A DNA stretch of 64,000 nucleotides from [Lactobacillus] rogosae (GTDB taxonomy: Bacteria; Bacillota; Clostridia; Lachnospirales; Lachnospiraceae): assembly GCA_900112995.1 (NCBI GenBank), contig FONU01000019.1, positions 1 to 64,000 on the forward strand, given 5' to 3'. The position numbers and the translations under genes are program-made. Below the pieces are notes generated by a model. The model was not told where the DNA came from. It saw nothing but the letters and a program-made list of their open reading frames with translations, and made no database searches. Below, piece by piece: positions 6,448-24,560 of this stretch (the first letter of the stretch is position 1; every line of letters begins with the position of its first letter).

Positions 6448-7371
6448 TTAATTATACACATATGCTTCACTAATCAAGCAATAACATAAATTATAATTTG
6501 CAGTCGTTGCCTCTACCTTTAAAGTTGAACAACTGTTAATAGCTACATCTGTTACTTTAATTGGTTCATCTAATTTTGATATTTCAGTTGAATATATTAC
6601 ATTTTCATTTTCATCCTTTAAAGAAACCGTCACATTATTAGTATTACTACTTCCATCTGCAATTGATATTATAAAACTTATATAATTATATTTTTTATCA
6701 GTATTATATATTATATATGAATTATTATAGGTCAATTGCAAAGCATTTGATCTATTATTTCCTCTGGAGTCCTTCTTTGAAACATTTACATCACAATTCT
6801 TCTTATCTACAACCCATATTTTATCTGAAAACAAGCTTGTTCTGTCTGATACTTTTTTCCCAATATACATATAATTATCGTCTGTCGTAATAGTTTTATT
6901 GTTTCCAACTATTCCTTCAATTACACTTTTTGCATAATATTCCTTACCATCAATAACTGCTTGTGATTTATCCGATGCGATTGAAATATTACTACTATCA
7001 ACATATAATCCAAGATTCCTATAAACAACATAACTTCTATCATTTAATTGATTTTTTAATAATTCATTTTGCTCTTTAATTTCAACATAGTTTTTATAAT
7101 ACTCTGTATTCTGATCATTCAATTTTTCATTATCTTGTATCGTCTTTTGATAATCTTTTATAAATTCATCTACATTATTAAAACTTACTACATTACCATC
7201 TCCTATAACACTCGAATTAATATTTTTATAAATTTTCTTTTCCTCATATGTGCTTCCTCCTAAAGCACCCACTATAGCTGTAGCAATTATAATAATCAAC
7301 TTCCATTTCTTATTTTTTATTTTAAGTTCTTCTTTTTTTATTTCCTTTTCTTTTATCTCTACATCTGACAT
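6448..7371 (-). CDS. Membrane-anchored protein with stalk-like and NPCBM-like domains
   Basis: 307 residues. A lysine/glutamate-rich start precedes one transmembrane segment (KLIIIIATAIVGALGG, about 24-40), so the bulk is probably outside the cell. Then come a predicted coiled coil (about 65-112), a small stalk-like module (GLYVDSSNISIASDKSQ to DDNYMYIGKKV, about 120-175), and a C-terminal beta-rich domain like the NPCBM/NEW2 carbohydrate-binding-associated fold (YNYISFIISIADGS, then IKVTDVAINSCSTLKVEATT). The architecture is common in clostridial cell-surface and phage-linked proteins; the exact role is unknown. AAAGGAG lies seven bases before the ATG. The gene at 11639 carries the same stalk-like module but stops right after it. 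Confidence 0.7.
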   Translation of the reverse strand: MSDVEIKEKEIKKEELKIKNKKWKLIIIIATAIVGALGGSTYEEKKIYKNINSSVIGDGNVVSFNNVDEFIKDYQKTIQDNEKLNDQNTEYYKNYVEIKEQNELLKNQLNDRSYVVYRNLGLYVDSSNISIASDKSQAVIDGKEYYAKSVIEGIVGNNKTITTDDNYMYIGKKVSDRTSLFSDKIWVVDKKNCDVNVSKKDSRGNNRSNALQLTYNNSYIIYNTDKKYNYISFIISIADGSSNTNNVTVSLKDENENVIYSTEISKLDEPIKVTDVAINSCSTLKVEATTANYNLCYCLISEAYVYN

Positions 7372-7707
7372 ATTAATCTCCTTTTATCTTAACATTGTAC
7401 TTTACATTTTCTTAAATATGTTCCCCCCCACTTCCTATTTTAGCTTAAAATACTTTTAATCTACTAAAAGCAACAAGCCACCCGAATCCTAACGGACCGA
7501 ATGGCTTATAATTCTATTATATATATTATGTATTGCCCCACTACAACCATTAGAATTCCTATCAATCCCATCTTTATTATCTTAATTAGAGTATAAAGCA
7601 CCTAAATTTATTTTGCAATAATTTACTAAGTATATACTCTTCAATATTATGTATACTTTAATCTCTACTTAAAGCAAAATATCTAAAAGCTTATTATTAT
7701 AATATCT
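7372..7707. other. Intergenic stretch with a G7 tract and one hairpin
   Basis: Between two minus-strand genes. It holds a run of seven C on the plus strand (7423-7429, G7 on the coding strand), 52 bases ahead of the membrane-protein start, in the context AAGTGGGGGGGAAC. An inverted repeat AAGCCA (7475-7480) / TGGCTT (7502-7507) with partial inner pairing could be a terminator for the upstream minus-strand gene, since TTGCTTTTAG follows on that strand. I see no gene in the rest, which is AT-rich. Confidence 0.5.
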
Positions 7708-8598: not shown

Positions 8599-9771
8599 TC
8601 ACACATTTCTTATCAACTGTTCCACAATATTACTCCACACATAATTGTCTGCCACAATATCAAAACCATTCTGAATTATTGCTTTCGCTTCATCAGAATT
8701 ATCCAGATAATACTTTATTAACTGAGGTATTTCTTCACACGCATCAAGCTTATAGTAAACAATATCTTGTTTATCTTTGAAATGCTTCTTAAGCCATTCA
8801 CTTGAATCCGTCAATGGTAAAGAACCTGACAGCAGGATATTAAATATTCTATCGTGAGTACCCGCCTTAAACCACGGCATAACATTAAGATTAATCTTTG
8901 CCTCTGCCATAACTGGAAGTGTCCTCGCAAATGGGACACGGTCATTAATAATATGCACATTACTTAAATTAGCAGAAGGGTGATTTTCCCAGCCTCTTCC
9001 TAACAACCATATATCAATTCCTGCTTCGGCTATTATTGAAATAATCTTCTCCCTGTAATACATTCTCGCCATCCAGTCTATAGGTTCAGAAAATCTAAAC
9101 AACTGCTTAACCTGCTCCTGTGCTAATGAAAGCTCCATCATATCAATAACATCAAGCACCGCCTGCTCCGTTGTTATACTATTATTGTCAATCATATACT
9201 CAGCAAGATTGTGATAAAATATCCTAAGCAGTTCATTATCTTTAAATGTATTGTCAATCTGTTCCAGATAACCCTGTGGTCTGTAATATGTCCCGGAAAA
9301 TAACACATCATATGGACGTTTATCATAACCTTCAAGATTTAACTTTCCATTATAAGTACCCGCGTGTGGCATAAATTCTACTCTGCCTACAGTACCACCA
9401 AAATATTTCTTAACATAATCAACGTGATTATCATCACAGCAGAACTGCACATAATTTCTTGGATGCTTCTGCATAGTCGGATGAAATCTCAATGGGTGAT
9501 CCATCAAAATATTAAGTGCTACCGTATCCATAGAATCCCACAGCTCTATAAACATATCGTCTTTTAAGCCTATTCCATCAAATCCTATAGCCGCATCTGC
9601 TCTTACCGAAAGGAACTCCGTAAACGCCTTAAAGGAATGACTCTCATCCTGCGTGCTGTTAGTTAAATCTAATATAAAGCACTCGTGATTTCTTTTTTTT
9701 AATTCTTCCACAATTCTATCCGTAAAATAGTTGAAAGATTCTACAGTGGAGTAAAATAATACGAAACGCAT
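8599..9771 (-). CDS. CgeB-like glycosyltransferase
   Basis: 390 residues. The N-terminal half has MRFVLFYSTVESFNYFTDRI and NILMDHPLRFHPTMQKHP; the centre has YDVLFSGTYYRPQGYLE. The C-terminal GT-B half has INLNVMPWFKAGTHDRIFNI and a GSLPLTDSSEWLK segment. The INLNVMPWFKAGxHDRI motif links it to the large gene at 1358 (LNVMTWHKAGMTERI) more than to the 176/3396/38667 subgroup. Presumed surface-glycan sugar transferase. AAAGGA stands six bases before the ATG. Confidence 0.82.
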   Translation of the reverse strand: MRFVLFYSTVESFNYFTDRIVEELKKRNHECFILDLTNSTQDESHSFKAFTEFLSVRADAAIGFDGIGLKDDMFIELWDSMDTVALNILMDHPLRFHPTMQKHPRNYVQFCCDDNHVDYVKKYFGGTVGRVEFMPHAGTYNGKLNLEGYDKRPYDVLFSGTYYRPQGYLEQIDNTFKDNELLRIFYHNLAEYMIDNNSITTEQAVLDVIDMMELSLAQEQVKQLFRFSEPIDWMARMYYREKIISIIAEAGIDIWLLGRGWENHPSANLSNVHIINDRVPFARTLPVMAEAKINLNVMPWFKAGTHDRIFNILLSGSLPLTDSSEWLKKHFKDKQDIVYYKLDACEEIPQLIKYYLDNSDEAKAIIQNGFDIVADNYVWSNIVEQLIRNV

Positions 9772-9803
9772 AGGTAATCCTTTCTCTCTTTAAAAATATA
9801 CGC

Positions 9804-10280
9804 TTATTTGTGTTGGCGTTTTAGTGAATCGCATTTCTTTTTATATCTATATAATTTCACACCTATAAATGGCTGTGCAACATTATCATTTTTCAGTTCC
9901 TTTTCAAGAATATCTATCTTTGATTGCAAAAAAGTTGACGTCAGACACTTCTTCTTCTCCCATCTTGCAAACTCTGTACTCACACTATCATACATACTTC
10001 TACATGTTGCCACTATTTTTGTAGATGTATCTCTTATTATCCTGCCTGAAGCATCAAAATTAATACTTCTCATACAATAAGCACATATCCCATGCTGTTC
10101 TTTAAATAAATTTTCTCTTATTTCATTTTTAGGCATTCTTTCAAATAACTCTCTAAGCTTAGACGTGTCACCTGGAAGACTAATTGCTCTATAGCCACTA
10201 GCTGGATCCTTTTTTATATTATCAGATGCTTTTTTTATTGATATAGGGGTTCTTCTCTTTCTAATGTATATCATTATCAT
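9804..10280 (-). pseudogene. PtuB-like HNH protein lacking its histidine half
   Basis: The 158-residue open frame resembles PtuB/TIGR02646 proteins, the HNH partners of Septu anti-phage systems. It has an N-terminal region with the first zinc pair (GICAYCMRSIN, about residues 64-74) and a typical C-terminal helix with PFIGVKLYRYKKK. What is missing is the family's central E-H-x-x-P and second cysteine/histidine stretch: between CAYC and the last three residues there is no histidine at all. The frame is shorter than the roughly 200 residues usual for the family. It looks like an in-frame internal deletion, so nuclease activity is unlikely. It overlaps the end of the PtuA-like frame by 20 bases, the typical ptuAB order. 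Confidence 0.6.
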
Positions 10281-11450
10281 TTCCCACTTCTAATTTATAT
10301 TCCGATTTTAAAGCAATAACTTTTGCATGTTCCTGTCCTAACAGTTTCTCTAAACTATTTAACGCTGATTTTGCCTCATCAAAATTTTCTTCATCCAACT
10401 CATTTTCAAATTTTTCTATAAGATTTTCTATTATTGCTGGCTGCATATGATATCCTAACATATCTCTTAATATTTCATTTACCGAATAAGCATAACTATC
10501 TGATATATACTCAATTTCTCCATCACTAATGTTTATAATATGAGCATTCTTACAAGATGATATAATAATTGGAGAATGCGTAGCTGCAATAAATTGAACA
10601 TTTGGAAAAATTTGTGTAATCGCCTCAACTATTTTCCATTGCCATTTTGGATGTAAATTTGAATCGATTTCATCTATAAGTACAATTCCTTCCACTTTTG
10701 ATATATTGTCCCCAATATCCGGATTAAGCACAGATATACGATATGCCAAATCAATTATAAGACTCAATATTGATTGATATCCCGCACTCAAATCTTCAAT
10801 TTCTTTACAGATGCCTTTTTCAACATATAATAATTTACGAGAATTTACATCATATATGACTTCGCTTTCCACCCCATCTGCATACACCAATCATATACAG
10901 AATTAAGATTAAGTTTTCTGTCAAGACATCCTAAATATCCACATCTCCTATCATGTAGCTGCTTTATTTTTTTTACATCTGCATCTGCCCTTGCTGTTAG
11001 CCAATGTCTTGCCGCACTCTGATAACTTATCAATGGAAGCACTGCCTGCATTGAATTAATAAGCTTTTGCGATACATCCTGTATGTCTTTAGGATTCATA
11101 GTTGTTTTAGTTGAACTACTTGAATTCTTCTTCGCCCTCACCCATTCATAAGATTTATCATTATATTTTAAAACACTACGAATTTGTGTTGATTCATCAT
11201 TATATATTTTATTAGGAATACCCATACTATCTTTAACAATTTCATATCTAACATCCTGCTTATAGATGTTTCTTGTCGGTACATCTTCCATTCCCGTTAA
11301 AAACCCCGAAATAGCCACTGAAGCTGCTTCTAAAATTGTCGTTTTACCTACTCCATTATCGCCTAATATAATGTTAAATCCTGGCTCGAACTCTAATTTA
11401 ATATTATCAAACATTTTATAATTTGATATTTCTAATTTTTCTAAATACAT
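10261..11450 (-). pseudogene. Broken PtuA-like AAA ATPase (Septu system)
   Basis: Two overlapping frames make one ABC-type (SMC-like) ATPase. The first (10845-11450) has the Walker A GDNGVGKTT at about residues 30-38. The second (10261-10890) has the signature-like DLSAGYQSILS, Walker B GIVLIDEIDSNLHPKW and the H-loop AATHSPIIISS. The join at about 10860-10880 is a frameshift, and the two parts total about 395 residues, less than usual for PtuA. A segment of perhaps 50-60 residues seems lost after VYDWCMQM. The upstream start is sound (GGAGAGG before ATG). The ptuB-like frame follows with overlap. In intact Septu systems PtuA senses and activates PtuB; here both parts are damaged. Confidence 0.65.
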
Positions 11451-15707: not shown

Positions 15708-15818
15708 CTATATTCCCTTTCCTGTATTACAATTTCATACTAAAAATAAAGGTATAAAATCCTTTGAAAGTTTACAAATAATTTTATGAAATTTGCAGCA
15801 AGTTGTTACATATAACAC

Positions 15819-15841
15819 AGGCGCCATTTTCATTGGTGCCT
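15819..15841 (-). terminator. Hairpin between radical SAM gene and araD
   Basis: AGGCGCCA (15819-15826) pairs with TGGTGCCT (15834-15841). There is no T-tract on the minus side, so it may be a weak terminator, an attenuator or an RNA-processing hairpin in the 143-base gap. Confidence 0.4.
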
Positions 15842-15850
15842 TCAAACAAT

Positions 15851-17242
15851 TTAAATATCTAACATTACGACCGAATTAATAAACTTATCCATTTCAAATA
15901 ACTTACCCTTAAAGCCTAATATTTCCAAATCTTTTCTAATAATATCTATATATTTATAGTTAATAACTATAATATTATCTTCTAAAGCTGGTTTATAGTC
16001 GCAAATATTTATTACTGGAATTCCACATATTTCTTTACGACATATATCTCTGGCTATAAATCCCTTAACATTTACTATATCTTTCAAAATGTTATATATG
16101 AATGTACTAAGCTGCTCATCTCCATAAATATAAATACTGTTTATATCATTATCTTTCAAATATTTTCCAATCTTTTCAGGTAACTTTTCATCCTCCATAC
16201 ATTTAATTACCATATCCAATTGCTCTTTATACTTATATGCTGGATGTGGTACGGCTGGATGAAGATTATGTGCTCCCCAGAAGAACACCTTTTCATTCTT
16301 AAATATAGGATGCTTTAACACTTCCATATACTCTTTATGATATGGATGCATTGGGTTCAAAATATCTTTCTGCCAATACAAATCTTCTGAAAGCCCAAAC
16401 CAGTGATACAATGGTTTTATAACCACCTGATCTGCTCCAAAATCTTCTATGCAACGTTTTGCAAACTCTGGAACTTCCATAAAATTACGATCCTGTACGA
16501 CAATAGAAATATTATATTCATTGACCAATTCCTGCTCCCTAAGTTGCTTAATAAAATACAAATTGTGTATCATCTTGTCATATGTATCATGTCCACCATT
16601 TAAATACTTATATGTACTAGGGACAAAACTATTTGGGGTAACTGTTACAGTAAGATTATGTTCTCCCAAATGCTTAATCTTTTCCCAATGTTCCTCATCA
16701 AATAATACACCATTGGTCTTAATTCCAAATCTGCTTTCTTTTCTTGCAAACCTAATTTCCTGCATCATTCTCATAATTGATGGACTTGCAAACGCATCTC
16801 CATTACCATCAGTCAAAACATAATCTGCTTTATCTAAATATGGTAATAATTTATCAATCATAATATTAACATTTTCAGTATATTTACTATCTCCCACAAA
16901 TACTTTTTCTCTGCACGAAGGACAGCTATGATTACATACATAATCACACGCTACACTAAAATCAACAGGTGCATCAGATGTAACTGTTTTTCTATCAAAT
17001 TCTTCTTCATCTAAATCTGGCAAAGTATCATTTTCTAAAAAAGGACATGAAGTTTTTCTGCAAAATGCAAATGAACCATTTCTAATAGCATCTCTTTGTA
17101 TTTCTGCCTTTTCACCCTTCCATATTTCATCAAGATCCTGTTCAATTAAATTTCCAATAGTTCCATCTGTCCATCCACATATTCTTACTCTTCCATCTGG
17201 CAAAACATAACAATGTTCAAAAGGTCTATTACAGTATTTCAT
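15851..17242 (-). CDS. Radical SAM protein with SPASM-like part in front and a Rossmann-like tail
   Basis: 463 residues. The order of parts is unusual. Residues 1-70 look like a SPASM-type iron-sulfur segment (C4, C11 in CYVLPDGRVRICG, C22, C61, C66, with the typical GNLIEQDLDEIWKGE). A radical SAM core follows with the CxxxCxxC cluster motif CNHSCPSC (C103, C107, C110) and barrel motifs such as GIKTNGVLF. From about residue 370 comes a small Rossmann-like module (INSIYIYGDEQLSTFIYNIL). Radical SAM/SPASM enzymes cleave SAM to modify peptides, sugars or cofactors; the substrate here is unknown. GGAAGG precedes the ATG. It lies between methyltransferases and araD in the array. Confidence 0.78.
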   Translation of the reverse strand: MKYCNRPFEHCYVLPDGRVRICGWTDGTIGNLIEQDLDEIWKGEKAEIQRDAIRNGSFAFCRKTSCPFLENDTLPDLDEEEFDRKTVTSDAPVDFSVACDYVCNHSCPSCREKVFVGDSKYTENVNIMIDKLLPYLDKADYVLTDGNGDAFASPSIMRMMQEIRFARKESRFGIKTNGVLFDEEHWEKIKHLGEHNLTVTVTPNSFVPSTYKYLNGGHDTYDKMIHNLYFIKQLREQELVNEYNISIVVQDRNFMEVPEFAKRCIEDFGADQVVIKPLYHWFGLSEDLYWQKDILNPMHPYHKEYMEVLKHPIFKNEKVFFWGAHNLHPAVPHPAYKYKEQLDMVIKCMEDEKLPEKIGKYLKDNDINSIYIYGDEQLSTFIYNILKDIVNVKGFIARDICRKEICGIPVINICDYKPALEDNIIVINYKYIDIIRKDLEILGFKGKLFEMDKFINSVVMLDI

Positions 17243-17477: not shown

Positions 17478-18344
17478 CTACGCTTGATAAGATGAATTTA
17501 TAAATAAGAAATAATATTCATCTCTCTCTTTATAGTTCCATATCATTTTTTTACATACAAACCCCTCCTCAAACATATCAGTTATTAAATTCGATATATA
17601 ATATGGTTTAATACCAAAATCCATATATCCCGCATCTGTAACTTTATCATCCAATCTTATAAATCTCTCGTTTCTCGTCTTGCTTAAAATTACATATTTA
17701 GCTTTATTAAGCTGTTTAATAAATTGCGGTATATTTTCAACATAATCAATTACACCTGCAATATAATACAGATCAACATCTATTTGTGGCAATCTGTTTT
17801 TGTTTATATCACACACAATTGTATCATCTGTTCTTTTTTGATAATCCACACCATAATATTTAATATTTTGTGATAAAAATTCCTTCAACAAGCACTCACC
17901 GCACCCTATATCCATAACAGATTTTACATCACAAGGTATTAATTGTGCTAAACTTCTAGCTCTCCTTTGCCACCCTGCACGCTGTCTTGCCAATGCATTA
18001 TTGTCTTTTTCTTCAAATTCAATCCAATTTTTATCATCATACACTTTATAATAAAAATTACTATCTAATTTCCAACCATTAAAAAAATGCTCATTTTCCT
18101 TCAATCCATATTCTTCTAACTTAATTTTTATTTCTGTATATCTTCTTGTATCATTAATAATAACAATTATATTGTCTATATTTTCTTCTCTTAAATAACT
18201 ATAATCATATACCTGTTTTTTTAATCCGTCATAACCAAATTCTCCTTCTTCATCATCCAAAAAATATGATAGTTTCTCAAACCTATCCAACGTATACAAT
18301 TTTTTTGCCCATTCTCCTGTCGGACAACCAATTAATTTTTTCAT
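17478..18344 (-). CDS. SAM-dependent methyltransferase with an N-terminal Rossmann-like module
   Basis: 288 residues from the second ATG (the frame opens two codons earlier). The first 100 or so form a small nucleotide-binding-like module (KKLIGCPTGEWAKKLYTL, NIIVIINDTRRYTEIKIKLE). A class I methyltransferase follows with motif I SVMDIGCGECLLKEFL near residue 143, YYGVDYQ and a DLYYIAGVIDYV motif-II region. The acceptor is unknown; a glycan or its amino substituent is likely from the context. GAAAGAGAG lies upstream. It is preceded by another, frame-broken, methyltransferase gene in the same direction. Confidence 0.72.
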   Translation of the reverse strand: MKKLIGCPTGEWAKKLYTLDRFEKLSYFLDDEEGEFGYDGLKKQVYDYSYLREENIDNIIVIINDTRRYTEIKIKLEEYGLKENEHFFNGWKLDSNFYYKVYDDKNWIEFEEKDNNALARQRAGWQRRARSLAQLIPCDVKSVMDIGCGECLLKEFLSQNIKYYGVDYQKRTDDTIVCDINKNRLPQIDVDLYYIAGVIDYVENIPQFIKQLNKAKYVILSKTRNERFIRLDDKVTDAGYMDFGIKPYYISNLITDMFEEGFVCKKMIWNYKERDEYYFLFINSSYQA

Positions 18345-18392
18345 AATCATTCACTCTCTTTCATTTAATTTAAATTATACATTACACATCTT

Positions 18393-19162
18393 TTATTTAC
18401 GTGCCACAATAAAAGCATAGCCCCAGCCATTTAATTGTCGTTTATATATCTTCTTAACTGACAGCAATACGCATATTTTACTAAAGAATAAATACAACTT
18501 GCTTTTATTGCATTCTATCCTACTCTTATTTTTATAAAATAATTTTGCTATTCTTCTTTCAAACAACATTCTGTGAACATTAAAATCTATTCGAAAAGAC
18601 TCGTTATTTTTATATATAAAACCTTTATTTTCTAACTCTGCAACATATCTTTCAAATGTTCTTCTTTTCCAACCACTGCCTTGCAATTCATATGGTGCTA
18701 TTTGTTCACATATACACAATACCCCCCCACTTTTAATTTGTTATATGCGTTTTGTATTAATTCATTTACTGTATCATCAGTTATATGCGCCAAAACGGCT
18801 ACAATATATATCATATCATAACTCTCATCACCTTTAATTCCATCTCCTGAACATTCAAAATTCACATTAGAATACTCTTTACATCGCTCTTTCGCTACTT
18901 TTAACATTTCACTTGAAATATCAACCCCTGTGAATTTATAATTATCATTATATAATATTCGTAAATATTCACCATCTCCGCAACCTAAATCTGCTATTTT
19001 TTTCACTTTATATTTTTTTATTAGTCTTCTTAGTGTTCTTATAATTATTTCTCTTCTTTTCACATAATAAGGTGCTGCTGTAATCGTATATAATTTTTCA
19101 CCTTTGTATTGATATTCCCTTAATGCACGAGCAGACCAATAATCCTCATTCTTCTCTATCAT
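18393..19162 (-). pseudogene. Methyltransferase gene, out of frame at a G7 tract (probably phase-variable)
   Basis: The first frame (19162 down to 18698) has class I methyltransferase motif I IADLGCGDGEYLRIL (about 56-70), FTGVDISSEMLKVAKER and NKLKVGG. It then enters a run of seven G (plus-strand C7 at 18722-18728) and soon stops. The second frame continues the fold seamlessly as VLCICEQIAPYELQGSGWKR and runs to 18393. With eight G the whole gene reads as one protein of about 255 residues. So this copy is OFF by one base in a homopolymer, the classic layout of slipped-strand phase variation. It starts inside the stop codon of the cobalamin gene (ATGA overlap), so translation is coupled. A sequencing error in the tract is the other explanation. 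Confidence 0.75.
18722..18728 (-). repeat. G7 homopolymer inside the methyltransferase gene
   Basis: Seven C on the plus strand, read as G7 in AAAAGTGGGGGGGTATTG on the coding strand. Runs of G this long stand out in such an AT-rich genome. Seven G gives an early stop; eight (or five) joins the two methyltransferase halves. Confidence 0.9.
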
Positions 19163-21060
19163 AGTCTTTTATCTCCATACTTACTTTTAAATATATATTC
19201 TGCCTTTTTAATATTTTCTATACACTTATTTATTCTGGAATCAACCGACATTATTAAACCATCTTTTTCTATTGCTAAACCACCATTACTCATTTGAATC
19301 TGCCATTGTTTAGCCATTTTAAACTCATCAGAATCTAACCATAATTGTGGTACAGGAAGCCACCCAGCCACAAATGCAATATAAAGTCCTTTTGCAGAAT
19401 ATAAGTTAGGAATACTATTTTCCATTACTTTTAATAATTTTCTTGTATCATTTTCAAGCTGCATCATTCTTACTGCAATTTTATCTTCTGCCTCTGTAAT
19501 AATATCTAATTCTTTTTTCTTATTCCTATATTCATGCAATGCTTTACGAGTAATTTTTATACTATCATTTATTATATCCGGTGTTGCCAAATATAAAGCC
19601 TCACTGTAACTTACCACATGAATTATTTCTGGATTACATATATTATACGGATCAATATCATCCATCATAGCAGTAACTGCTGCTAATTGAATCTTCGCCT
19701 CTTCAATATCAGGTTTAAAATAATCCAATCCAGCTCTCGTCTGAAATATTACTCTAAAATTACTATCTTCTAATTCTTTAATCAGCTTCAGCACTACTCT
19801 TGATTTTGCAAGATCCTGTATTCCCCAGGTGCTACGTGGCGTATTTAACATATTTTGTAATATAAAATATTTAACACCACATTTTTTTGCCATTTTCGCT
19901 GCCAAAACTTCTGCCAGTATATATGTTACGTCATCACAACCTCGAAATGCAAAATGATGTGACACATTTGTCTCAACCGGTGTATTATTAACCGCAACAT
20001 ATTTCATTGTATCAATATGTTCATTTAGATTTTGATACAAGTTATTAACACCTCTTCCATCTAACTCATCAAACCACCATAATGAAAGAGCATGCCAGGC
20101 AATATGTATTGTTCTTTCGTACATTTCAGCCATATTTCTAACATTTTTTGTTGCTGAATATGTCCTTACAAGCATAGGTTTTGCTGCATTCCAAATATCT
20201 ATATATTCTTTTTCTGAATTGACAGGTACTCCTCCTCCATTAATTTTACCACTCCAATTTTCACCAAAATTAGATTGTGATAACTGTGACGAACCTATCG
20301 ATAATATATCCAAATATCCTGAATTGGCAAGTATCCTGCACCATTCTAAATACTGTTTCAAACAATCTTCTCTTGTCATATCTGGTGAATATGGACCTGA
20401 ATGTGCCCTTATTAATGGTGCAAATCCACAATTAAATCCATTATCTAATCGCTTGATTAATGAATCTGTTGTTTTTCCATAATCACTATATTTCTTTTTA
20501 TCTAAAGGTTTTTCATTTTTATAAGCACCATCTGTTATAATACTTTTTCCAAATTTCAATATTTCACGATCATATTTACAGCCTGACACAATATTTTCTG
20601 GCATTTCTTCTTCAGGTACTCCCATTACCGCCAGTGTTTCTTCTGCTGACTCTCCACCTTTAAATGTACTAATTCTTCCGTTATACTCTTTTTCTATCAT
20701 TTCACAAGCAGGCTTTAATCCAGCAAAATATATGCTCTTGACTACAGCCTCTAAACATTCATAGCATCTTTGATCTTTTAATAGTGTAACAAAACGACCT
20801 ACTATATTTACAGCATCATTAGGATCTAAGCGATATGAAATACCAATATGTTTTATTTCATTTTCTTTAATCCATTCTACAATTATTTTTTTACTTTCTT
20901 CACTTTCCAAAGATTCCAAGGCTCTTTCTTCTCTTGCCGTTGACATAATCACCGTATACCCACAGTCTTTTAATAGTGCTGCTGCTGCATATACTCCCAT
21001 CGTATGTGCATCAATCAGTGTTTTTATTAATCCAAATTTTTCATTCTTTTGAGCTTTCAT
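19159..21060 (-). CDS. Cobalamin-binding, mutase-like protein (fused B12 domain and barrel)
   Basis: 633 residues. The N-terminal 150 carry the B12-binding signature of base-off/His-on enzymes: LIDAHTMGVYAAAALL with D17-x-H19-x-x-G22, then ISYRL (S75 to L78), then STFKGGES (G135-G136). The next 420 residues look like a TIM-barrel catalytic part: LDILSIGSSQLSQSNFGENW, INGGGVPVNSEKEYIDIW, TPVETNVSHHFAFRGCDDVT, KYFILQNMLNTPRS and RVIFQTRAGLDYF. The layout recalls adenosylcobalamin-dependent carbon-skeleton mutases, with a faint likeness to the glutamate mutase barrel (GlmE); similarity is too weak to name a reaction. AAGAGG precedes the ATG. It sits 12 bases after the opine-dehydrogenase-like gene and overlaps the next methyltransferase. 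Confidence 0.65.
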   Translation of the reverse strand: MKAQKNEKFGLIKTLIDAHTMGVYAAAALLKDCGYTVIMSTAREERALESLESEESKKIIVEWIKENEIKHIGISYRLDPNDAVNIVGRFVTLLKDQRCYECLEAVVKSIYFAGLKPACEMIEKEYNGRISTFKGGESAEETLAVMGVPEEEMPENIVSGCKYDREILKFGKSIITDGAYKNEKPLDKKKYSDYGKTTDSLIKRLDNGFNCGFAPLIRAHSGPYSPDMTREDCLKQYLEWCRILANSGYLDILSIGSSQLSQSNFGENWSGKINGGGVPVNSEKEYIDIWNAAKPMLVRTYSATKNVRNMAEMYERTIHIAWHALSLWWFDELDGRGVNNLYQNLNEHIDTMKYVAVNNTPVETNVSHHFAFRGCDDVTYILAEVLAAKMAKKCGVKYFILQNMLNTPRSTWGIQDLAKSRVVLKLIKELEDSNFRVIFQTRAGLDYFKPDIEEAKIQLAAVTAMMDDIDPYNICNPEIIHVVSYSEALYLATPDIINDSIKITRKALHEYRNKKKELDIITEAEDKIAVRMMQLENDTRKLLKVMENSIPNLYSAKGLYIAFVAGWLPVPQLWLDSDEFKMAKQWQIQMSNGGLAIEKDGLIMSVDSRINKCIENIKKAEYIFKSKYGDKRL

Positions 21061-21072
21061 AATTCAAACCTC

Positions 21073-22131
21073 TTATTTTTCACTATATGATTTTATAATG
21101 CACAATGGAAATGTTCTTCCACTTTTTCTAAAATCTGTTTCATATACCGCATTAGCTAATTCAATAATATTGGTAATATGTGGAGTTTCCACTTTTAATT
21201 CACTTGCAATATGTTCTATTGGAACTAACCCATTAGGAACATCTTCTAATATATATCTGCTATTCAAAGATGGAGGTGCATCAATTTCCTTATATGCACA
21301 ATTATTTTTTATGCACTCATATAAGTTATCACCTGTTATCTCATATGTTCTTCTAAGCCAATCAGCTACTGTTTCTATAGAATACCCTATTTTATTCGCA
21401 ACTGCTAATCTTTCACCATCCATTTTTTCAAGATATTTTGCAACAGTTTTTGATATTCCATCATAATAATATTTAAATGCAACTTTATCATTTTCAATCC
21501 AACCAATATTCATAAGTACAGGTGCGCAATGTAATATCATTCCTACATTCGACAATGAGATTCTCATTATACTATCATCTACAAGAAAATATTTCTTTAA
21601 TGAAGCCGGCATTTTGTCCATTACCATATGCATATTACAATTAGACAATCCTGCTATCTTAACATCTTTTTTCATCGCAAATATAGTTACCTCATTCAAT
21701 TCACTTCTTCTACAAGTATAAACAATTGTCTGCGTTTCTGCTATCTGTGGCAGTTCTTTTACTCCACATTTTTTTAATTCTTCTGCAAAATGTATTGCCC
21801 CAAATGTTCTTCCTGGATTAAGCACTATAATTGTTTTTTTATTAATATATGGTGCAATCTTTTTGGCTATATCTGCATATGCATTACTTGGAACTGTCAC
21901 TAATATATAATCTGAAATTACCTCTTCTATTATATCTGAAGCCTTTTCAATTTTTGCAATTCCTTCTATTTCACCTAAACAATGTATTGTTCCATCATTT
22001 ATAACATCTTTTATATGTTCTCTTGTTCGATTCCACAATGTAACTTTTTCACCATTCAGCGAAAGGTATGCTGCCATCGCAAGTCCCTGATGACCACCAC
22101 CACATACAAAATATGTCCGTTGTTCTTCCAT
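21073..22131 (-). CDS. Octopine/nopaline dehydrogenase-like NAD(P) protein
   Basis: 352 residues. The N-terminal Rossmann fold starts with YFVCGGGHQGLAMAAYLSLN (GGGHQG, 11-16) and VTLWNR at the end of beta 2. The C-terminal helical domain resembles the octopine/nopaline dehydrogenase family: NVGMILHCAPVLMNIG with the conserved N and H, then a YYDGIS segment. Family members reductively join an amino acid and a 2-oxo acid, giving N-(carboxyalkyl) amino acids. In this neighbourhood an N-carboxyalkyl substituent or another amino-acid derivative for a glycan is plausible but unproven. GAGGAT lies before the ATG, and the gap to the ATP-grasp stop is four bases. Confidence 0.8.
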   Translation of the reverse strand: MEEQRTYFVCGGGHQGLAMAAYLSLNGEKVTLWNRTREHIKDVINDGTIHCLGEIEGIAKIEKASDIIEEVISDYILVTVPSNAYADIAKKIAPYINKKTIIVLNPGRTFGAIHFAEELKKCGVKELPQIAETQTIVYTCRRSELNEVTIFAMKKDVKIAGLSNCNMHMVMDKMPASLKKYFLVDDSIMRISLSNVGMILHCAPVLMNIGWIENDKVAFKYYYDGISKTVAKYLEKMDGERLAVANKIGYSIETVADWLRRTYEITGDNLYECIKNNCAYKEIDAPPSLNSRYILEDVPNGLVPIEHIASELKVETPHITNIIELANAVYETDFRKSGRTFPLCIIKSYSEK

Positions 22132-22135
22132 TTAC

Positions 22136-23389
22136 TTATCCTCTTATATCAAAACATTCCCTATACATTATGTCTTTCCCATTAGTAGCTATGATTTGGG
22201 TCATTTCCAGTAGTTTTTTTCTTTTCTCTAATATTTCTTCAACAGACTCTGCTTCTAATAACACTCCCATAACTCTATCGCTGCTTACAAGTCGCTGTCT
22301 TATTTCAGAATTTTTTTCTTTATATTGAAAAAACTCTTTTATAATATCTTCCTGCTTTGCTTTTTCAAAGCCATCAATTCTTTCAATCACTCCATTATAA
22401 GCATATATATAATCCATTTCATATAACTTTTTCTTATTTGATAACTTAATATCCGAATTAATGTTATCAACAACAAAATCTGTATACAATTTCATTATAT
22501 CTACATCTGTAATATATTCTATAAGTTTATATTTTGAACCTCCTCCCATTCTGGCACTGAATTCTAATACGAATATATCATTATCCTGAACAATAGCCTG
22601 AACCAGCATTGGTCCATCTTTTATATCAAATGTTTTACTTATTTTTTTTGATATTTCATATATCTGATGTTGTAAATCATACGAAATGTCATCTATTGAA
22701 TAAAAGCTTTGATATATTGTAAATGCCCCTGTCCCTGCATTCATTTTATTAGTTCTGGTAACATCTAAAATTAATGGTTCATATTCTTTTACCCATATAT
22801 CTATTGAAATTTCATACCCACTTAAATACTTTTCCACTACAATTTTGCTGCTTCTGCTTAGGGAAAAAGCTGTATCGACTGCACCTTTTAACTGTTCTAT
22901 ATTCTCAACTTTTTTAACGCCCTTTGAGCTGTTGCAATCACAAGGTTTCACTACATATGGAAAATCATTAAACTTTTGAAATTCCTCTTTATCTATTTTG
23001 TTTTCATATAATTTATACATTGCTGTTGGAATGTTATTTTCTTCAAACCTTTGTTTCATATAAAACTTATTAGTTACACTTTCTGCACAAGCTTTAGACA
23101 AATAAAATGGCATATGCAGCTTTTCAGATACATTGGCTACCGTTAGTAACGCCTGGTCAGTGCATGCAGTAATAATAGTATCAACCTGTTCTGTCTTGGC
23201 AATATCATATATTGCTTGTTCATCTAAAGTACTTACTTGCATAAAACAATCCGCTTCCTTTTTGGCTGGAGGATTATCCAAATAATCTGCAAGAATAATA
23301 TAGTATTTTTTTTGTTTTAATTCATTAATTAAGGCAATTTGATCATATCCCCCGGCTAAAACAAGAGCTTTCTTTTTATTATTATTCAA
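22136..23389 (-). CDS. ATP-grasp carboxylate-amine ligase
   Basis: 417 residues. An N-terminal pre-ATP-grasp Rossmann part (KALVLAGGYDQIALINELKQ) is followed by the ATP-grasp fold: FPYVVKPCDCNSSKGVKKV near residue 142, VEKYLSGYEISIDIWV near residue 185, and the metal-binding VLEFSARMGGGSKYKLIEYI near residue 272. Such ligases activate a carboxylate as acyl-phosphate and join it to an amine, here perhaps the amino group made by the adjacent DegT enzyme. The start is TTG at 23389: GGGAGAG stands well placed inside the last codons of the DegT gene, and no better ATG exists. Tightly coupled on both sides. Confidence 0.82.
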   Translation of the reverse strand: MNNNKKKALVLAGGYDQIALINELKQKKYYIILADYLDNPPAKKEADCFMQVSTLDEQAIYDIAKTEQVDTIITACTDQALLTVANVSEKLHMPFYLSKACAESVTNKFYMKQRFEENNIPTAMYKLYENKIDKEEFQKFNDFPYVVKPCDCNSSKGVKKVENIEQLKGAVDTAFSLSRSSKIVVEKYLSGYEISIDIWVKEYEPLILDVTRTNKMNAGTGAFTIYQSFYSIDDISYDLQHQIYEISKKISKTFDIKDGPMLVQAIVQDNDIFVLEFSARMGGGSKYKLIEYITDVDIMKLYTDFVVDNINSDIKLSNKKKLYEMDYIYAYNGVIERIDGFEKAKQEDIIKEFFQYKEKNSEIRQRLVSSDRVMGVLLEAESVEEILEKRKKLLEMTQIIATNGKDIMYRECFDIRG

Positions 23390-23391
23390 AA

Positions 23392-24519
23392 TTAATCTCT
23401 CCCAATATTAACATATTCATATATACCATCAATTACTCTATCCATTTCACTCTTCTGTATATCTTCATAAAATGGAAGAACCAATATTTTATCAGATAGT
23501 TCTCTAGCATTGTCTAATTGATTATTTCTATATTTATTCTTAAAACAAGCTTGATCAGCTGTTATTGGATAAAAATATTTTCTTGAATAAATCTCTTTAC
23601 TGCGCAAATATTTGTATAACCCATCCCTTGATATACCATCTGTTTTATTATCTACAATGATTGGATAGTAAGCATAATTAGTTACTACATTATCTATTTT
23701 ATTAAACAAGTGAATATCTTTTAATTCACTTATTTTTTCATTATAATAGCTACATCTTTTCTCTCTGGCTTTTATCGTTTCATCTATATGTTTCAAATTA
23801 CAAAGCCCCATAATAGCTGAAAATTCATTCATTTTCGCATTAGCACCTATTGAAACTACTAGTTCCTCGCCACGTATACCAAAATTTTTCAAATTATATA
23901 ATTTATCATATAATTTTACATCCGAAAATGTAACAGCACCACCTTCAATGGTATTAAAAACCTTAGTTGCATGAAAGCTAAATATACTGGCATCACCATA
24001 ATTGCCTATGCCTTTTCCATTGTACTTAATTCCAAAGGCGTGTGCTGCATCATAAATAACTTTTAAATTATATTTGTCTGCTATTCTTTGAATTTCATCT
24101 ACATTACATACATTTCCATATACATGTACCGGAAGAATTGCCACTGTATTTTCTGTAATTAAATCTTCTATTTTAGTTTCATCTATTGTTCCATCACTTT
24201 GTTTTATATCACAAAATACCGGTTTTAACCTGTTCCTAACGATTGCATGTGTTGTAGATATAAATGTAAAAGGAGTTGTTATAATTTCTGAACCCTCGGG
24301 AAAATCAAAAGCTTGAATTGCAAGTTCCAAACCCATATGTCCATTTACCATTAATGATAAACTCGGTACCTCAAGATAATTCTTTAATTTTTCTTCTAAC
24401 TGCTGATGATATGTTCCCATATTTGTAATCCAATGCGAATCCCATAATGATTTTATTTCATTTACATATTCTTCAAATGGTGGCATTGATGGTCTGGTTA
24501 CTAATATTTTATCTTCCAT
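23392..24519 (-). CDS. DegT/DnrJ/EryC1-type PLP aminotransferase
   Basis: 375 residues. Family marks are VNGHMGLELAIQAFDFPEGS near residue 58, ITTPFTFISTTHAIVR, ILPVHVYGNVCNVDEIQ, VIYDAAHAFG (cofactor-binding Asp near 156) and SIFSFHATKVFNTIEGGAV with the PLP lysine at K186. These enzymes transaminate keto-sugars of nucleotide-activated sugars. I start at the ATG at 24519 because GGAG lies nine bases before it; the ATG at 24534 overlaps that site. It opens the cassette of DegT, ATP-grasp, opine-dehydrogenase-like, cobalamin and methyltransferase genes, all spaced within a dozen bases or overlapping. Confidence 0.88.
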   Translation of the reverse strand: MEDKILVTRPSMPPFEEYVNEIKSLWDSHWITNMGTYHQQLEEKLKNYLEVPSLSLMVNGHMGLELAIQAFDFPEGSEIITTPFTFISTTHAIVRNRLKPVFCDIKQSDGTIDETKIEDLITENTVAILPVHVYGNVCNVDEIQRIADKYNLKVIYDAAHAFGIKYNGKGIGNYGDASIFSFHATKVFNTIEGGAVTFSDVKLYDKLYNLKNFGIRGEELVVSIGANAKMNEFSAIMGLCNLKHIDETIKAREKRCSYYNEKISELKDIHLFNKIDNVVTNYAYYPIIVDNKTDGISRDGLYKYLRSKEIYSRKYFYPITADQACFKNKYRNNQLDNARELSDKILVLPFYEDIQKSEMDRVIDGIYEYVNIGRD

Positions 24520-24560
24520 GATTTTCATCTCCATTTATTAAATATTCATTTCTAATATTT

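Follow-up and report, generated by a model that had tools for sequence, protein, structure and literature searches.

A methyltransferase gene split by a G7 tract in a putative Lachnospiraceae surface-glycan cluster as a candidate phase-variable locus

Phase variation driven by simple repeats has mostly been described in mucosal pathogens. In Campylobacter jejuni, cj1426 encodes a capsule heptose 6-O-methyltransferase with a poly-G tract, and a reporter of this gene switched at about 2.5e-2 (PMC8437040). The SAM-dependent methyltransferases of Campylobacter fetus carry tracts of G7-10, and the Campylobacter survey that included them used a cut-off of seven G, admitting tracts that may switch at <1e-5 (PMC6321876). 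Among commensals, Bifidobacterium breve carries a G tract of G11-12 in a sortase-pilus gene, in which length variation was measured directly; G tracts in promoter spacers were also mentioned (PMC9187656). Gut Lachnospiraceae are abundant commensals. No relevant description of repeat-driven phase variation in this family was found in the open-access literature, which is weak evidence with subscription papers outside the scope of the search.

The window was a 64,000-nucleotide stretch of [Lactobacillus] rogosae (contig FONU01000019.1, positions 1 to 64,000). A methyltransferase gene on its minus strand was off frame as assembled, and its parts were defined as follows:

18393..19162, minus strand: complete methyltransferase gene, out of frame in the assembly, 256 aa with G8; full-length homology to a Parablautia muri ortholog
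18722..18728, minus strand: G7 tract (C7 on the plus strand), the frame switch point, in the KVGG turn of the methyltransferase
18698..19162, minus strand: off-state open reading frame, 154 aa, the SAM-binding half of a class I methyltransferase (Methyltransf_25, 62 bits)
18393..18719, minus strand: downstream frame, the C-terminal part of the methyltransferase, undecayed; without internal stop and 36% identical to the P. muri downstream frame

From sequence comparison, the gene at 18393-19162 is a candidate intragenic poly-G contingency locus subject to slipped-strand phase variation, and we consider it likely that the tract is a reversible switch rather than the mark of a dead gene or a sequencing slip.

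The first-pass annotation had placed a methyltransferase-splitting G7 tract at 18722-18728, and the plus strand read C7 at exactly those positions. Its claim that one added G joins the two frames was borne out when tract length was varied in silico. On the coding strand the tract read GTG-GGG-GGG-TAT, and seven G gave a product that stopped at 154 aa with the C-terminus ...NKLKVGGYCVYVNK. Eight G gave a 256-aa methyltransferase reading ...KLKVGGVLCICEQIAPYELQGSGW... across the tract, while six and nine G gave products of 151 and 152 aa, respectively. The frame was thus set by tract length alone, and one class of lengths modulo three gave an intact protein. Decay of the downstream frame had been named as a sign that would speak against a switch. 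None was seen: the approximately 109 codons contained no stops, the other two forward frames contained 6 and 17, and the gene carried no second lesion besides the tract-caused frame break.

Codon usage was compiled from 30 window genes, in which GGG made up 7.8% of Gly codons and GTG 12% of Val codons. Given this usage, GTG-GGG-GGG at a Val-Gly-Gly position had a probability of about 7e-4, and none of the 41 Gly-Gly pairs in these genes was spelled GGGGGG. The G7 tract is therefore unlikely to have arisen by chance. Its length equals the seven-G cut-off for poly-G contingency loci (PMC6321876), and it lies inside a reading frame.

Genome-wide G tracts were located by pattern search. In total, the 2.8 Mb genome contained nine tracts of at least seven G (one G10, two G9, one G8, and five G7), most of them intergenic, and the methyltransferase was the clearest tract-split reading frame among the frames examined. 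The second G7 tract of the window (7423-7429, minus strand) was intergenic, approximately 50 nt upstream of a gene for a 307-aa membrane protein (6448-7371). As a promoter tract it was rejected; no promoter-like site was found around it.

The N-terminal half of the protein was assigned to the class I SAM methyltransferases by a Methyltransf_25 match of 62 bits (cut-off 27) and contained the SAM-binding motif DLGCGDGEY. The match stopped at residue 147, in the LKxGG turn, which is also the place of the truncation. Solved relatives of a two-sequence profile, e.g., phosphoethanolamine N-methyltransferases (profile 50-204), extended beyond the truncation point. As the truncation removes the rest of the Rossmann fold, including the final sheet strands, the 154-aa product should be inactive; this prediction draws on the domain match and on what is known of the class I fold. 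Reinitiation at a TTG just past the tract was considered unlikely, this codon lying 2 nt from the tract without a separate ribosome site; its product would be without the SAM-binding half. Assignment to the CpaM corrinoid protein-associated methyltransferases (NF043040) was also rejected, the truncated half scoring 46.9 bits vs. a curated cut-off of 180.

The methyltransferase gene was found within a run of minus-strand genes, listed here with its neighbors:

17478..18350, minus strand: second methyltransferase-like gene, next downstream, a possible polarity target; weak methyltransferase match, 52% homolog in Selenomonas bovis (L059)
19159..21060, minus strand: cobalamin-type protein, 633 aa, with a 4-nt overlap between its stop and the start of the methyltransferase; DxHxxG invariant in 10 homologs, B12-binding match weak and below cut-off
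21073..22131, minus strand: opine dehydrogenase-like gene of the cobalamin module, a conserved neighbor (Octopine_DH, 159 bits)
22136..23389, minus strand: ATP-grasp ligase of the cobalamin module, a usual neighbor in related loci
23392..24534, minus strand: DegT-type sugar aminotransferase (DegT_DnrJ_EryC1, 321 bits)

The methyltransferase began with an ATG at 19162, and the 4-nt overlap makes its proposed translational coupling to the cobalamin-type gene plausible. The first-pass annotation had proposed that switching would spare the pathway; the off state would, however, leave approximately 300 nt without translation ahead of the next gene, which makes polarity on the downstream methyltransferase-like gene possible. 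The cluster also encoded LicD proteins, an IspD-like cytidylyltransferase, an epimerase, and a GT2 glycosyltransferase, a content suggestive of a surface glycopolymer that carries an unusual substituent.

The glycan region also held a PtuA/PtuB Septu-like pair (9804-11450, minus strand) in which PtuA had lost about 30 residues and its frame. The two halves of the PtuA-like gene (10261-11450) matched profile positions 1-191 and 222-417, with a stretch missing in addition to the frame break. In contrast to the methyltransferase, this gene represents ordinary decay, that of a decayed defence system.

No confident Pfam or PDB relative was found for the cobalamin-type protein (~630 aa), and no relative was found in phages. 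Its relatives occurred in Lachnospiraceae, Selenomonas, and many Bacteroidales, where they almost always adjoined an opine dehydrogenase-like gene, usually with an ATP-grasp gene near. This conserved module of three genes spanned 19159-23389 (minus strand) in the window and was also present in loci L056-L079. The genes downstream of it varied between loci.

Only one of 26 cobalamin-type loci carried the methyltransferase, that of Parablautia muri D42-62 (L077). Its gene (L077:7941-8763) was 46% identical to the window methyltransferase over its length, occupied the same operon position, and adjoined a cobalamin-type protein 66% identical to that of the window. No further ortholog was found among 98 relatives, 397 family and 391 class genomes, the genome contig collection, IMG/VR, and plasmids. 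A distant match near P. muri (G927) was rejected as an ortholog, being a tract-free methyltransferase that aligned over part of its length only.

The P. muri ortholog was also split off frame, into frames of 173 aa and 119 aa around a G10 tract. This tract was approximately 45 nt further downstream than that of the window, at a place occupied in the window by CAAGGCAGTGGT; at the KVGGV turn encoded by the window tract, the P. muri sequence is GGTGGT. The frame errors were opposite: the P. muri tract had one G in excess, that of the window lacked one, and the downstream frames were intact in both genes. Two off-frame tracts gained independently in orthologs are what selection for switchability predicts, and on this comparison neither one-off decay, nor a shared recoding signal, nor random assembly error would predict them.

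The main rival to a switch is a one-base deletion in a G8 stretch, leaving a young pseudogene without regular reversion. A tract as short as G7 is expected to revert slowly (PMC6321876), and gene loss does occur in the window, where the PtuA-like gene is truly decayed. Lacking a second lesion, and with its ortholog split likewise at an independent tract, the methyltransferase is nevertheless unlikely to be such a pseudogene. Sequencing or assembly error is harder still to credit: here the true tract would be uniformly of another length and the gene on. Homopolymers are error-prone, and in B. breve the annotated G-tract lengths can differ from those in the population (PMC9187656). An off-frame tract is, however, also present in the unrelated assembly of P. 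muri, and a gene with a genuine G8 would itself qualify as a candidate contingency locus. A seven-G run is short for short-read sequencing platforms, which would argue against such an error if a platform of this kind was used.

Full-length protein might also be produced from the G7 gene through programmed -1 ribosomal frameshifting or transcriptional slippage on G_GGG_GGG. Read in the zero frame, the tract does have the form of an X_XXX_XXX slippery heptamer, from which a -1 shift leads into exactly the downstream frame. No downstream stem was present, however, with folding weaker than in shuffles (z = +1.65), and the two genes share no recoding signal, since the ortholog would have to shift in the other direction and at another position. 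The gene was accordingly rejected as a programmed -1 frameshift gene, and recoding in either form is judged very improbable.

Poly-G tracts inside genes were also found elsewhere in the lineage. The genome of P. muri (5.1 Mb) contained 18 tracts of at least eight G, four of them within 22 kb in the methyltransferase locus and all four with G on the coding strand. A simple Poisson estimate would put the chance of such clustering at about 1e-3. Besides the ortholog, the tracts of this locus were in a multi-spanning membrane protein (G9, open) and two methyltransferases (G9 and G8, both open), the G9 methyltransferase adjoining a tract-free paralog 39% identical to it. A fifth methyltransferase, on a different contig, carried a G9 near its start and was out of frame. 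Genes in P. muri and other genomes included:

L112:5667-7712, 9728-10489, and 15755-16429, and L114:404-1387, P. muri: methyltransferases and the membrane protein with intragenic G8-G9 tracts, three open and one out of frame
L116:1250-2852 (G008), genus of the window: MBOAT O-acyltransferase split by G9
L139:931-1599 (G016), genus of the window: hexapeptide acetyltransferase with G9 near its 5' end
L067:1443-2558, Prevotella sp. P5-92: Acyl_transf_3 gene with G11 near its start

Several P. muri tracts broke non-glycan genes too, e.g., an ABC transporter ATPase, and some of the tracts in this genome may thus have no use as switches. The first-pass annotation had regarded poly-G tracts of this kind as less usual in Clostridia; this fits poorly here, as they are common in the lineage of the window.

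Tracts of G8-G11 were also located between TTGACA-like -35 and TAnnAT -10 elements, some of them upstream of secreted proteins. Several tracts of G9-G10 in the genome of the window and in its genus had this position, and the candidate promoter tracts included:

C8:67614-67623 (L010) and C31:131320-131328 (L008): genome of the window
L115, L142, and L148: congeners

The pattern TTGA-N(4-15)-G8-TANNAT matched 50 sites, spread over 36 of the 295 genomes, and the reversed control matched one. Although the pattern required TTGA only, 35 of the 50 sites had a full TTGACA, and spacer lengths were 12 to 21 nt, most often 18. These tracts fit a spacing tuned by slippage and are candidate phase-variable promoters, and the sites suggest that poly-G tracts are put to use elsewhere in the lineage. 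Overall, the tracts in glycan methyltransferase and acyltransferase genes and the G8-G11 tracts set against a -10 box may well constitute an undescribed Lachnospirales poly-G phasome, a reading toward which we lean slightly, with the window methyltransferase as a short-tract member.

The length switching, the loss of activity, the substrate, and the surface effect are the parts of the switch that we infer. Slipped-strand mispairing in replication would alter the length of the methyltransferase tract. With G8 the cell would make the full class I SAM methyltransferase of 256 aa, and with G7, the length assembled, a protein ending at 154 aa after the LKxGG turn. The full enzyme most likely methylates a substituent that comes from the cobalamin/opine-dehydrogenase/ATP-grasp module and is destined for the surface glycopolymer. 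The population would thus be mixed for the methyl mark.

Several observations count against a switch: the G7 is at the low end of tract lengths, a single ortholog is known, and the genome has only nine tracts of at least seven G, mostly intergenic. The comparison covered one genome per species. The earlier proposal of a phase-variable switch held as the best explanation, given the independent off-frame G10 in P. muri and the lineage tracts in glycan genes and promoter spacers, with the qualification that seven G is about the shortest tract expected to switch efficiently.

If the tracts switch, clonal commensal populations would hold several surface-glycan states, which would matter for sensitivity to phages, recognition by antibodies, and the persistence of strains. 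Such tract-split genes would be labelled pseudogenes by automatic annotation.

The mechanism is already known, for example from cj1426 of Campylobacter; the novelty lies in the member, the lineage, and perhaps a poly-G phasome that spans the lineage. Like cj1426, the window gene is a glycan-cluster methyltransferase whose frame depends on an intragenic poly-G tract, and the cj1426 cluster shares with the methyltransferase locus the presence of other phase-variable genes in the same cluster, here as candidates. Unlike cj1426, for which switching was measured, the window tract is shorter and its switching is proposed, the host is an anaerobe of Gram-positive lineage, and the likeness drawn here is one of enzyme type and gene design. 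The C. fetus methyltransferases share the enzyme class and a range of tract lengths that includes seven; they belong to another phylum, and their lengths come from several strains compared with one strain here. B. breve is likewise a gut commensal in which an intragenic G tract splits a surface-related gene, there a pilus gene with G11-12. The closest counterpart is the P. muri gene (L077:7941-8763), an ortholog by sequence with the same operon position and an off-frame poly-G split, in which the tract is G10, at another codon position, and needs the opposite frame correction.
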